From Saprospiraceae bacterium (GTDB taxonomy: Bacteria; Bacteroidota; Bacteroidia; Chitinophagales; Saprospiraceae), in contig JANWXM010000028.1 in assembly GCA_025055285.1 (NCBI GenBank), positions 1 through 42,529 on the forward strand: 42,529 nt of DNA. The letters run 5' to 3'. Position 1 is the stretch's first letter; each line of letters begins with the position of its first letter. Positions 34,538 through 38,740 of this stretch are shown one piece after another. The notes under the pieces are model-generated. The model was not told where the DNA came from. It did not search any database and was given only the letters and a program-made list of their open reading frames with translations. A program made the position numbers and the translations under genes.

Positions 34538-35524
34538 TTACGGCGACGCCTGGTTTAGGTCACAGGAGGCCTGTATGGGCTCGGCCATTTGTTTTTTATG
34601 GCGGCGCAGTTTTTTGAGTAGTTTATACAATTTAAGATTTAGGGAGGGATTAGCTGTAAAGAAATACCCATTGATAGTAAGCCATTCCCGCTCGAAATGT
34701 AGGTCATTTAGTTCCTTATAGGCGACACAGTGTGCCCGACTCAGCGGAGCTCGCCAATATAGTCGGCGGTCTGTCATAGCAAACCCTTCTTTGCCGCTGC
34801 CGGTCAGCGACAAATCGCAAATGAAAAACAATCGCTCAGACCTGTCTGCAAAAAGGAAGCTTTTGCAGGCGTTAGTCAATAGTTCTTGCGGCATCTGGAA
34901 AAAGTTTCTGTAGCATACCTCTGGCTCGCGTTCGAAGTCGAGAAAGTCGAAGATCATGCGCCCTAACTCAAGGCCACTTGGCAAAATGCGCTCGTAGCGG
35001 AGTATAGCACTAGGCAACCAGACGTCGTTAAGGTCAGGGCAGAACTCGATAATAAAATAATCCAACAGCCCATCGAAGGCCTCTTCCAAGAATTCGTCGA
35101 TCTGAGGCAAGCCTGCCAAACCAAAGCGATTCCACAGCGTCATCACATCGCGCACTAGTTGCCCCGTTCGGGCTTCGAAGATCGTTGAAAAACGCGAGTC
35201 GTAGAACCGCTGCACATACTGACTGTGCTTTTGTATGTCGTGTTCTTCCCGAACTCGCTCTAAAAGAAGGCGAAAGAAACAAGCTTTTAACTGGGTACCT
35301 ATGCGCTCTGGGATAAAATCGAGCTTAAATCGAGGCGTATATGTCGCCCTACTGGTTTCTTTCTCGACAAAATGGAACCCGCACTCATGGCAAAAAATCG
35401 CAGCAATAGGATTCTCTGCCCTGCAAATCGGGCATAGCTTGCTTTGCCCTCCCACCTGTTCGCCACATCGATAACAAAACCTACTACCTGGTAATAATTC
35501 CGTCAAACATTTTGTACAGCGCAT
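34538..35524 (-). CDS. Double zinc-ribbon protein with possible PH-like C-terminal region
   Basis: This 328-aa protein starts with two zinc ribbons: C3/C6 with C17/C20 and C31/C34 with C45/C48. A helical middle part (about 70-220) has no recognised family. The C-terminal part (about 235-310) contains KEGFAMTDRRLYWRAP followed by alternating strands. This resembles the first strands of bacterial PH-like domains, which often sense membranes or proteins. No membrane helix is seen. It has its own -7 element and is separated from the proton-channel operon by a strong terminator. The shared zinc-ribbon feature with the small protein at 37386 still suggests a functional link. The function is unknown. 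Confidence 0.65.
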   Translation of the reverse strand: MRCTKCLTELLPGSRFCYRCGEQVGGQSKLCPICRAENPIAAIFCHECGFHFVEKETSRATYTPRFKLDFIPERIGTQLKACFFRLLLERVREEHDIQKHSQYVQRFYDSRFSTIFEARTGQLVRDVMTLWNRFGLAGLPQIDEFLEEAFDGLLDYFIIEFCPDLNDVWLPSAILRYERILPSGLELGRMIFDFLDFEREPEVCYRNFFQMPQELLTNACKSFLFADRSERLFFICDLSLTGSGKEGFAMTDRRLYWRAPLSRAHCVAYKELNDLHFEREWLTINGYFFTANPSLNLKLYKLLKKLRRHKKQMAEPIQASCDLNQASP

Positions 35525-35590: not shown

Positions 35591-35630
35591 TAAAAAAATT
35601 ATGGCGCCACTCCGCTTCAGGAGGGCGCCA
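35591..35630 (-). terminator. Intrinsic terminator after the MotA/TolQ-like gene
   Basis: On the minus strand TGGCGCC and GGCGCCA enclose an inner CTCC/GGAG stem, giving about 11 bp with one bulge and a 6-base loop. A run of seven T follows almost directly. It begins about 30 bp after the stop at 35662, so it ends the proton-channel operon. Confidence 0.8.
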
Positions 35631-35661: not shown

Positions 35662-36483
35662 TTACAAGTGAATCCGATTTACTAGGTTTTCTACGACATA
35701 ACGTTTGCTGCCCGTTAGAAAATCTTCAACGCGGGTCTCCGTGCGCTTGACAACGATACTGACGATAATACCCAGCACTATAGACAAAATGGTGGTAAAA
35801 AATGCCGTGCCCAAGTTGTCAATTAGCATCGAGATATCTGCCGCTCCAATGGCGGTCTGTGGAACGGCAGCAGCGACGGCGCCCGTCGTCGGGCTCGCCT
35901 GAGCCATGAGCCTTACTTCACCCATATTCAAGATAGCGGCAGCCATGCCCAACACGGTGCCTAGGAAACCGAGTGCAGGAATAAGATTTTGGCAAGTATT
36001 GATGAGCCAGAATTCGCGCTCAAAGGCCTTGCGCTGCATGTCGCTGACCGTCTCTACCATGGCCAAAGCATCAGCAGGCGAGTGATTAGAGCGAAACTTA
36101 GTGGCAGCCTGCTTGATAAGGTCAGTGATCATACTTGGGCCTAAGTGTCGTTCGGCCTCGATAGTACGGAGCTTTATTTGATTGACGTCTTCCGGATAGA
36201 GGACATATTGCTCCGTTTCGGGAAGAAGTCGAGCCGAGTAAATGGAATGCTCGCGGCGTAAGCGGGCGTTGAGGGCATCTACGCCAAAAAGAGCGAGAAA
36301 GAAACAAAAGTAAATCGCTCCTTGGATGAGGCCTTCAGGCATTTTGCCGCCCAAGGCAAAGAAGAATGTTTCGGTAAAGGAATTTGGTGGAGAAGCCCAG
36401 TATCCAGCGACAACGAGGATTAACGTACAAACGCTCAGGACTAGGCAATAAGCGATATGGTTATTTTTCTTTTGAGCAAACAT
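35662..36483 (-). CDS. MotA/TolQ/ExbB-type proton channel subunit
   Basis: This 273-aa membrane protein has four hydrophobic helices at about 10-30, 52-71, 165-187 and 224-245, the MotA-like topology. A cytoplasmic stretch of about 90 residues lies between the second and third. The TolQ/ExbB core is visible as ALGFLGTVLGMAAAI in helix 3 (Thr176) and NLGTAFFTTILSIVLG in helix 4 (Thr226, Thr230, Thr231), positions where relatives line the proton path. Such subunits form a pentamer around two copies of a one-helix partner and convert proton flow into movement. The gene just upstream (36524) encodes a plausible partner. No flagellar, Tol or TonB genes are near, so the driven process is unknown. 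Confidence 0.85.
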   Translation of the reverse strand: MFAQKKNNHIAYCLVLSVCTLILVVAGYWASPPNSFTETFFFALGGKMPEGLIQGAIYFCFFLALFGVDALNARLRREHSIYSARLLPETEQYVLYPEDVNQIKLRTIEAERHLGPSMITDLIKQAATKFRSNHSPADALAMVETVSDMQRKAFEREFWLINTCQNLIPALGFLGTVLGMAAAILNMGEVRLMAQASPTTGAVAAAVPQTAIGAADISMLIDNLGTAFFTTILSIVLGIIVSIVVKRTETRVEDFLTGSKRYVVENLVNRIHL

Positions 36484-36523
36484 GGCTACAAGAATTGGTT
36501 TTGGTTAATGTGTGAAAAGGATA

Positions 36524-37408
36524 TTAGCGACTCCACTTACCTTTGGACTTAGACGGGGAGCGAGAAAGGCTATCAGAAGTTGGCACCGACAATGCCGGAG
36601 GAGGCAGCGTTGCTTTTTCGTTGTTGGATCGTGTATTGTTCGTTGGCAGCAGTATCGACTGATAGTCGAGGGCATTGTTCAGTACTTGAAGCGTGCCTGC
36701 CGGTATCCACTCGGTGCTTGAAATGGCGTAAGAGCCAAAGTTGTAAGTGATGCTGCGATAGCCGGGCTGTAATATTTTACCGTATAGCGCGAACGGTTGC
36801 GGACTTGATGTAGCAGTGCGTTTTTTCACGCGTACCCAAACCTCGTATCGCCCAGGTTTAATCCGGGCCTGATAGAAGTAATTAAGGCTTTTTTCGTATT
36901 GAAAGTCATCAGTCTGATACTTACCAGCGCGGCCCGGCTTCCATACCTGATTACCTTGCTTAAGCATAAATTCTACGCTCTGCTTGGCTAGACCTTCTTG
37001 CTGAAGAAGGATAGTGACATCGCCCTTTGCCTGCTTCATCAAGTCTACAACAACGGGATCTTGAGGTGGTGCAGAAGGCGAGGTTTCTTCGGCTTTTTCA
37101 GAAGAGCGCGTCGGTTCGGGCAGTGCAAGCGCTGGTTCTTGCCGTGGCTTTTCTACAGGAGTGAGCATCGGTTCCTGTTTCGGCACAGAGTGCTGCTCTG
37201 TGAGTGCAGAGCGCCTCTGCGAGTTAGACCGCGGCTTCTCCATCTTTTTGTTTTCCACACGTTGCGCCACAGAGGGAGAGGCAGGATGCACCTCTGCGCT
37301 TGCTAGGCGCGCATTTAAAAAATGAAGCACGATAAATACGCCAAGTGCACCGGTGAGGATATCAAGCGCAGAGACAAACATCGGGTTAAAACTCTTCTGG
37401 TTGGCCAT
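36524..37408 (-). CDS. One-helix MotB/TolR/ExbD-like partner with unrecognised periplasmic domain
   Basis: The 294-aa product has a short cytoplasmic N-terminus (KSFNPMFVSALD) and a single membrane helix at about 15-33 with Asp16 at its start. This is the arrangement of TolR, ExbD and MotB, whose helix Asp carries protons. A Pro/Glu/Lys-rich linker follows (about 40-120), then a beta-rich region (about 125-245, with GRYEVWVRVKK and YGKILQPGYRSITYNFGSY) and a low-complexity Ser/Pro tail. No OmpA-type peptidoglycan-binding motif was recognised, so the periplasmic domain differs from MotB. It overlaps the zinc-ribbon gene at 37386 by 23 bp and precedes the channel gene by 40 bp. The assignment as stator partner is inference from topology and neighbours. 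Confidence 0.6.
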   Translation of the reverse strand: MANQKSFNPMFVSALDILTGALGVFIVLHFLNARLASAEVHPASPSVAQRVENKKMEKPRSNSQRRSALTEQHSVPKQEPMLTPVEKPRQEPALALPEPTRSSEKAEETSPSAPPQDPVVVDLMKQAKGDVTILLQQEGLAKQSVEFMLKQGNQVWKPGRAGKYQTDDFQYEKSLNYFYQARIKPGRYEVWVRVKKRTATSSPQPFALYGKILQPGYRSITYNFGSYAISSTEWIPAGTLQVLNNALDYQSILLPTNNTRSNNEKATLPPPALSVPTSDSLSRSPSKSKGKWSR

Positions 37409-37655
37409 AGTGATAAGCTTTGCGGGTGACCGAATGAGGGGTGCAGTCTTTGCCTACAATATCTTCCAGGCGGGCGTTACAGCAGGCGCAGCGGCTGTGA
37501 TGCGCCGGATTTTGCGCTGCACAATTCCAACATATGAGGAACGAAGAGGCGGGAGCAGCTCCGGGCACGGCTCCTTGAGGCAATTTATAGTTGCACTGAC
37601 GGCAGCGCATTTGGTCAGGTGATACAGCGTAACCACAATTAGGACAGTTTCTCAT
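37386..37655 (-). CDS. Small double zinc-ribbon protein
   Basis: This 89-aa protein has two zinc ribbons: C4/C7 with C18/C21 and C42/C45 with C56/C59, each CxxC-x10-CxxC. A glycine/alanine/proline linker joins them, and the last 25 residues are a charged tail. There is no signal peptide, so it should be cytoplasmic. It is the first gene of the set zinc ribbon, one-helix partner, channel, and overlaps the second by 23 bp, implying translational coupling. A role as cytoplasmic adaptor or regulator of the channel is inferred from this alone. Confidence 0.75.
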   Translation of the reverse strand: MRNCPNCGYAVSPDQMRCRQCNYKLPQGAVPGAAPASSFLICWNCAAQNPAHHSRCACCNARLEDIVGKDCTPHSVTRKAYHYGQPEEF

Positions 37656-37733: not shown

Positions 37734-38462
37734 TTAGAAATAATACATGTAAGACAACCCTACGGAGAGCGTGCGATTCTTAATACCGCTGATGTCAATG
37801 TTGCGAAGGCCGTGGGTATAGCGCACATCGAGGCCGATTTCTCCACTGTCCAAAATGAGCACTATACCAGCACCGAGATTGACACTTAAGTCGCCTTTTC
37901 GATAGTCGTCGTAGCGGCCGCGGCCCATCTCAATGGTGTATTCTTTGCGGTCGGTGAATGCGGACTGTTTCCCTTCGAGGTCGAGATGGACGACATCAAT
38001 CTCTTCGCGGCCAAAGCCGTTGGCCACGGCAATGGAGATGGCCGGCCCGAAAGCTACATAAGCGCCCAACCCACCACCGCCGAAGTTTTTCTCGAACATG
38101 AGAGGAATATCGAGGTAGTGCAAGGTCTCTTGCCGGCGAATTTCCTTGACTTGATAGTCGCGCGGATAGCCAAAGTGCTGACCGTTCCACGACAGTCGAC
38201 TCTCGCTTTTCAGGTTGGCGCCGCGCTGTACGTAAACAATTTCTGGCTGGAAAGTAAAGCGACTGCCCAAATTGAACTCTGCAAACAAAGCACCACCTCC
38301 GCCCAGGCGCAAGTAACTGTCGTGAATATCGTTGAGATCTTTCGAAAGTTTGTACGTAGAAAATGTCGCCATCGGGCGAAAACCTACGCCGCTCAGTTGA
38401 GCGTACACGGCATTTAGGGAAACCAGACTGAGGATAGCCAAAAACACTACGCGGTTTTTCAT
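37734..38462 (-). CDS. Outer-membrane beta-barrel protein (PorT/OMP_b-brl type)
   Basis: The ATG at 38462 gives 242 aa and a clean signal peptide (MKNRVVFLAILSLVSLNAVYAQ); a slightly earlier ATG at 38474 is possible. The mature part alternates polar and hydrophobic residues in about eight to ten strands, opens GVGFRPMATFSTYKL and ends with SVGLSYMYYF, a terminal aromatic. It contains FQPEIVYVQRGA and LDIPLMFEKNF, frequent in the Bacteroidota small-barrel family. The function is unknown. It lies 78 bp upstream of the zinc-ribbon/channel set on the same strand and may be co-transcribed. A 6-bp dyad lies 25 bp before the start. Confidence 0.75.
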   Translation of the reverse strand: MKNRVVFLAILSLVSLNAVYAQLSGVGFRPMATFSTYKLSKDLNDIHDSYLRLGGGGALFAEFNLGSRFTFQPEIVYVQRGANLKSESRLSWNGQHFGYPRDYQVKEIRRQETLHYLDIPLMFEKNFGGGGLGAYVAFGPAISIAVANGFGREEIDVVHLDLEGKQSAFTDRKEYTIEMGRGRYDDYRKGDLSVNLGAGIVLILDSGEIGLDVRYTHGLRNIDISGIKNRTLSVGLSYMYYF

Positions 38463-38486
38463 GACAAATACCATTTTTTAAGTTTC

Positions 38487-38505: not shown

Positions 38506-38740
38506 CTTTAATGCGCACGCTTGTTTAGAGGTAACCACCCCCGCAACTTCTTTTTGATGGAACTTCACGAACAACCTGGAAGTCTGCTTCATTATTCTCC
38601 TCAAGAAAAGCAGCCTGTCTTTCCTTTCTCTCTTTTCCCGAAGGCAATCTCTATGCTCTACTAATAAAGCGGGAATTTTTCGATAAGCTACAACAAAATG
38701 CCCACCTTTGCGCGGTTGGAGAAGATTTTAGCCGTCTATC

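Follow-up and report, generated by a model that had tools for sequence, protein, structure and literature searches.

A four-gene unit of Saprospiraceae that may encode an ion motor reaching the outer membrane

Ion motors of the 5:2 type power nutrient import, maintenance of the envelope, swimming, gliding and defence against phage. The non-flagellar family is heterogeneous and takes in generic ion transporters (GIT), as set out in the main text of PMC12505986, from which the words "zinc" and "Bacteroid" are absent. In the relevant part of PMC12204202, TPH-vWA B subunits are proposed to act as force transducers with TolQ-like motors. The window (the whole 42,529-nucleotide stretch analyzed here) contains a four-gene unit on its minus strand, in the order OMP-ZnR-B-A, that encodes an outer-membrane barrel, a zinc ribbon and two ion-motor subunits.

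The first gene, OMP (37734..38462), specifies an outer-membrane beta-barrel of the OMP_b-brl_2 type (Pfam PF13568, E 2.5e-16 on the ORF 37734-38474), with an N-terminus that looks by eye like a signal peptide; a barrel profile found no credible relative in the PDB. Then come ZnR (37386..37655), which encodes an 89-aa double zinc ribbon, B (36524..37408), which encodes the subunit with the Asp16 membrane helix, and A (35662..36483), which encodes the subunit of the MotA/TolQ/ExbB family. After A there is an intrinsic terminator (35592..35630, minus strand), a GGCGCC stem (35630-35602) followed by a run of seven T; folding of the 81-nt stretch yields -29 kcal/mol (z -2.7; one shuffle in 200 did as well), and a simple consensus terminator scan did not list it. 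A sequence-only reading had described a three-gene module of A, B and a small double zinc-ribbon gene overlapping B by 23 bp, closed by a terminator. These three ORFs, the overlap and the terminator were all found as described, but the module proved to be larger, since the barrel gene is a constant fourth member in 17 of 17 related loci.

These loci were retrieved from a species-genome collection with a profile (A1) built from 11 B proteins. The close relatives of the unit are nearly all MAGs by title, and all of the 17 loci but L089 come from records titled as MAGs of Saprospiraceae, Bacteroidota or Bacteroidetes. L089, a short contig, is labelled Thermoanaerobaculia and is probably misbinned; its unit resembles the others and was retained in the counts. 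The order OMP-ZnR-B on one strand occurs in all 17 loci, so the homologues co-occur, as a system of the proposed kind would require, and A is next in 14, the sequence ending before A in the other three (L081, L088 and L089). The ZnR and B genes overlap by 11 bp in 14 loci and by 23 bp in three, 23 bp being also the overlap in the window. On the downstream side no family is common to more than four of the 17 loci, and among 118 flanking ORFs of at least 90 aa no family occurs in more than four, a sigma/anti-sigma pair aside. Part of the conserved gene order is common descent. Within the genus, 11 of the 25 genomes have a B of the window's type; an even sample of the order has it in 5 of 298, all five from the window's genus. 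B is thus not generally needed, which counts against the motor reading. A further zinc-ribbon protein gene just downstream (34538-35524) was considered as a fifth member and rejected: it is in 25/25 genomes of the genus (split into two pieces in G010), mostly away from the unit, and adjoins it only in the window and in one of the 17 loci (L073). The window copy of this genus-wide protein matches the PADLOC model BnzA over residues 163-279 (E 1.1e-8).

Similar units occur more widely. A mixed A profile (A9, E 1e-15 or better) found members in 27 of the 298 genomes sampled from the order, which represent 18 of 140 genera, and one for the window A alone (A5, 1e-12) found them in 5 of the 395 from the phylum, the window's own included. 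Complete OMP-ZnR-B-A sets are present in four loci from other genera of the same family (L177, L178, L180 and L181), and at a fifth (L179) the sequence ends within B. In these other-genus loci ZnR was judged by its four CxxC pairs (that of L177 is under the Pfam cut-off); the L178 barrel passes the Pfam cut-off while those of L177 and L180 do not, and the L177 and L181 barrels were assigned by similarity to other barrels. Within the window's genus, second units with all four genes are found at L096, L098 and L099. The remaining one, L145, has OMP, B and the start of A, with no room for a ZnR gene, which counts against a motor reading that includes ZnR.

More distant A relatives have other companions. 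For instance, in a second family of the same order, 11 of 12 loci have next to A a protein that combines two CxxC pairs with an FHA-like end (L095, L150, L151, L152, L154, L155, L157, L158, L159, L168 and L169, the exception being L166); the count covers 12 of 15 such genomes, leaving out L153, L156 and L160, and the FHA match was computed for L095 alone. In L097, from the same order, an A relative is next to a vWA gene and B is of the vWA type. A TPR-CHAT gene directly follows A in L177 and L100, and other A relatives are beside genes that by eye are Ser/Thr kinase-, PP2C- or trypsin-like. L101 (G009:C3, 1497-6976) carries a more distantly related MotA-like gene together with two short proteins that have an Asp helix and a long one that by eye looks caspase-like, a transposase-like ORF lying between them.

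The A subunit matches Pfam MotA_ExbB (PF01618; E 2.9e-12, 46.9 bits against a cut-off of 22.9). A crude hydropathy scan gave four main hydrophobic segments (6-33, 48-75, 160-190 and 217-250), as foreseen for a MotA/TolQ-like four-helix subunit, plus a weak one (202-221) beside the last, and the protein ends about 25 residues past TM4. Thr176 and Thr231 align with Thr148 and Thr181 of ExbB, which the relevant part of PMC12905483 gives as essential residues; E. coli MotA has Ala at the position of Thr176. TM4 reads AFFTT or AFFAT in the window's clade versus AFDTT in most look-alike units, and the missing Asp counts against a simple motor picture. In a FastTree phylogeny of 31 A sequences the window's clade grouped with the Saprospiraceae units (support 0.977), apart from ExbB, TolQ and MotA. 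The window A is 28-29% identical to its counterparts in L177, L178, L180 and L181 versus 12-17% to ExbB, TolQ and MotA, and an A profile searched against the PDB found only TolQ, weakly (E 0.005). Is the unit simply the Ton system of this organism? The genome has three other MotA_ExbB genes, each in an ExbB-ExbD-TonB-like locus (ExbD and TonB being named by eye), which argues that the unit is not the ordinary Ton system.

B has 294 residues and a single hydrophobic stretch (about 6-40). As had been proposed from the sequence, this one-helix protein has the Asp of TolR, ExbD and MotB: in an alignment of 18 sequences, Asp16 falls on the Asp of the E. coli proteins and on that of two ExbDs encoded elsewhere in the genome, and none of the 18 copies, among them the window's, lacks it. 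The family model for A together with the alignment of B Asp16 and of the two A threonines supports placing the pair in the 5:2 motor family. The rest of B comprises a linker from residue 34 to about 116, a conserved domain (about 117-255), a second linker and a C-terminal GKW motif. The first linker is 76-90 residues long with 16-32% Pro in 16 of 16 complete copies (the window's being lowest in Pro), and GKW is kept in the same 16 of 16. Against Pfam, NCBIfam and PADLOC, at E limits of 1, 1 and 10, B gave no hit; it therefore has no visible OmpA domain and shows no sign of belonging to an unrelated known family. Neither OmpA nor vWA was among the Pfam matches of the window B and 11 members scanned. 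Some of these 11 relatives had weak matches that are not credible as a family identity (best E 0.024), and searches of PHROGs and PDB sequences with B gave nothing useful.

The conserved domain of B was also compared with that of the look-alike units. The latter domain has a DxDL-type motif and is presumably YfaP-like; no Pfam model matched that label. In profile comparisons the window B matched one set of two look-alikes (A8) over the helix only (probability 86%) and another of four (A7) over residues 178-248 only (68%), and A7 and A8 matched each other over the domain (97%). When the B domain alone was compared with nine look-alikes by hhalign, an end-to-end alignment was obtained with a score of 22.8 (probability 6%, E 0.0057), above all 150 column shuffles (mean 12.6, best 22.1) and a reversed control (15.3); a forced global alignment with the same nine gave nothing. 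Searched against the PDB, the profiles of the two look-alike B sets yielded no credible relative (nothing for one, coiled-coil matches for the other). On these comparisons, homology between the domains is possible to likely, and its weakness counts against the motor reading.

ZnR matches Pfam Zn_Ribbon_1 (E 4.2e-6) and its eight-Cys pattern is present in 18 of 18 copies, again including the window. Its N-terminus does not look by eye like a signal peptide, and the protein is probably cytoplasmic and a candidate adaptor.

A putative regulatory pair accompanies many of the units. An ECF-like sigma gene, assigned in L073 by a Sigma70_r2 match just under the Pfam cut-off (E 7.2e-5), lies upstream of the unit in 14 of the 17 loci, on the opposite strand and at 60-100% identity to the L073 protein. 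It is absent from beside the unit at L076 and L078, and L086 is without upstream DNA; at L074 and L089 sigma is separated from the unit by a further ORF. Behind sigma there is a TPR-bearing gene in 13 of the 14 loci (the L079 sequence ends first), which from its place and a weak zf-HC2 match looks anti-sigma-like. Among the other genera, L177 has sigma and a second gene after OMP-ZnR-B-A-CHAT, all on one strand, and in L178 the two are divergent (sigma region 2, E 2.4e-4 and 1.6e-8, respectively); none was found near the units of L180 and L181. One locus, L215 (G011:C78, 6628-10864), has sigma, anti-sigma-like and TPR-CHAT genes in a row without a motor (CHAT E 5.3e-59).

The sigma and OMP genes have a DNA element in common. 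This two-box element, GGTTAC-N17-CANNAA, was read from 13 OMP-upstream regions and in the window lies at 38508..38536 (minus strand), 45 nt upstream of the OMP start. It is present 44-69 nt before the start of 17 of 17 OMP genes with upstream DNA, including four (L074, L078, L081 and L089) not used in defining it. Likewise 14 of 14 sigma genes have it at their start, and none of these was so used. Of the 32 matches in 424,508 strand-bases, 31 are these OMP and sigma sites. The sigma gene of the window's genome is located on another contig and is preceded by the same element (G000:C1:86870-86898), as are the sigma genes on other contigs of G019 and G006. Inspection of the sigma side showed that the element stops 1-2 nt short of the ATG, runs across it, or ends within the first codons. 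An ordinary -35/-10 promoter would fit the OMP side but not these sites, and was rejected as an explanation. No copy of the element turned up in L177, L178, L180, L096, L098, L099 or L145; L181 has a single match, differently spaced and distant from its unit, and L215 has one of the right spacing inside a gene. Its absence from those look-alike loci makes it a feature of the window's type and not of all such units.

A genome-wide regulon was also considered and rejected, as the window's genome has seven matches to the element versus 13 to the backward control, i.e. no enrichment. Two further matches in this genome, their number genome-wide being within chance, are at L224 1319 and L225 1143; by eye, one is close to where a tsaD-like and a DUF4097-like gene begin on opposite strands, and the other precedes an OMP-like gene. 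Within the genus, sigma (at least 62% identity) is encoded by 10 of the 11 genomes that have the unit and by none of the 14 that do not (Fisher 3.4e-6), the unit-bearing exception being G022, whose best match has 39%. However, on a tree of one shared gene these genomes reduce to between one (starred branches) and three independent pairs, so the co-occurrence was discarded as independent evidence.

We favor the reading, with a probability of about 0.6, that the unit encodes a 5:2 ion motor, driven by the proton-motive force, in which B itself transduces force to the outer membrane. Such a complex, whose fold, function, stoichiometry and direction of force we infer, would be a trans-envelope machine powered by the proton (or sodium) gradient, in which five A subunits would enclose a pair of B helices on the pattern of ExbBD, TolQR and MotAB. 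The ion path would involve Asp16 of B with Thr176 and Thr231 of A, and the B dimer would turn or shift. The Pro-containing linker of B (about 80 residues), the domain and the GKW tail would then extend towards the outer membrane, where the barrel from the first gene would be the likely partner; gene order and the length of B are what suggest this reach and contact. ZnR may bind on the cytoplasmic side as an assembly or signalling adaptor, and the ECF-like sigma/anti-sigma pair may be tied to expression of the unit via the shared element.

Could the motor read the envelope rather than work on it? It might be an ion-powered sensor that does no work at the outer membrane but follows the logic of Zorya, where a 5:2 motor senses the envelope and the effector is cytoplasmic; it would register outer-membrane strain or damage via the barrel and signal inwards via ZnR to the sigma/anti-sigma pair and, in some species, a CHAT protease. 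The divergent sigma gene in 14 of 17 loci and its presence beside the L177 and L178 units speak for this, as do the element common to sigma and OMP genes, the TPR-CHAT genes directly after A in L177 and L100, and the FHA, vWA and (by eye) Ser/Thr kinase- and PP2C-like neighbors of distant A relatives. We nevertheless think such a sensor unlikely: CHAT is beside the unit only in L177 and L100 and not in the window's type, L180 and L181 have no sigma that we could find nearby, A has no ZorA-like tail, and PADLOC (4 window proteins and 7 of L177) gave no match to ZorB, ZorC or ZorD. Moreover, the existence of a sigma-TPR-CHAT row without a motor (L215) means that the pairing of sigma and CHAT with the unit may be partly chance. 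We give slightly less credence to a self-regulating form of surface sensor, in which the barrel and a periplasm-spanning B would report the state of the outer membrane via ZnR to the ECF-like sigma/anti-sigma pair (in some species CHAT) and sigma would drive the motor genes via GGTTAC-N17-CANNAA.

T9SS and gliding occur in Bacteroidota, and most relatives of the unit are titled Saprospiraceae or Bacteroidota/Bacteroidetes. B might therefore bind peptidoglycan or a T9SS or gliding component, as an anchored stator or as a secretion or gliding accessory, with the motor moving a surface structure as MotAB and GldLM do. GldL, however, has two helices against the four main hydrophobic segments of A, Pfam detects no OmpA-like domain in B, and the distribution is narrow (5 of 298 genomes of the order). 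Although the 5:2 family includes GldLM and MotAB (relevant part of PMC12905483), we hold such a role to be very improbable. We would say much the same of a plain ion channel or small transporter with the barrel and zinc ribbon as accidental hitch-hikers. Its appeal is that the neighbors are small proteins of common families and that order within one genus can be inherited, but the order is held where the downstream flanks differ, the 11- or 23-bp ZnR/B overlap is kept, and the same order recurs in other genera at 28-29% A identity.

How, then, does the favored B-transducing motor compare with known systems? With Ton the unit shares an A of the MotA/TolQ/ExbB family with the conserved Thr, a one-helix Asp partner, an outer-membrane barrel as likely client and a Pro-containing periplasmic linker, in Ton that of TonB. 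It differs in having no TonB gene, an A outside the ExbB/TolQ clade of the 31-sequence tree, a B of 294 aa with another domain (E. coli ExbD has 141 aa), a small OMP_b-brl_2 barrel instead of a TonB-dependent transporter, and a zinc-ribbon partner. Neither TonB nor a TonB-dependent receptor, nor TolA, TolB or Pal, was detected among 10 window proteins scanned around the unit with Pfam. With Tol-Pal the unit has in common a TolQ/TolR-type pair, without TolA, TolB or Pal in its immediate surroundings. The OmpA-like peptidoglycan-binding domain of the MotAB stator was not found in its B. Zorya likewise has a motor pair with a possible cytoplasmic output, and there is a weak ZorA match near TM4 of A (E 7.4e-5 in the window, 1.5e-6 in L177), whereas the ZorA-like tail and the three other Zor proteins are lacking as noted above. 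The sequence-only statement that Tol, TonB and Zorya companions are absent agrees with these scans, PADLOC giving only weak ZorA stretches among the four window proteins and seven of L177. GldLM is set apart by its two-helix GldL, and no GldL or GldM model was among the NCBIfam matches of four window proteins scanned.

With GIT, a broad group as presented in the main text of PMC12505986, the unit shares a non-flagellar A/B pair and a divergent B domain with no OmpA fold. The suggestion that the locus encodes an undescribed ion-driven machine stands in part: it is a conserved ion-motor module, but its kind is not wholly undescribed, on the evidence of the relevant parts of PMC12505986 and PMC12204202. 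What look like new elements are the barrel as a member of the unit, the zinc ribbon and the sigma link, and no paper on an OMP-zinc-ribbon-MotAB unit was found among open-licence PMC papers. If the favored reading is true, the range of roles of 5:2 motors would be widened by a B transducer that comes with a barrel of its own, a zinc ribbon and a link to sigma. Among published ideas the TPH-vWA transducer comes nearest, in which, according to the relevant part of PMC12204202, one B likewise combines an Asp helix with force transduction and needs neither TolR/ExbD nor TonB/TolA; the unit departs from it in that neither the window B nor any of the 11 members scanned gave a vWA match, and in having barrel and zinc-ribbon genes.
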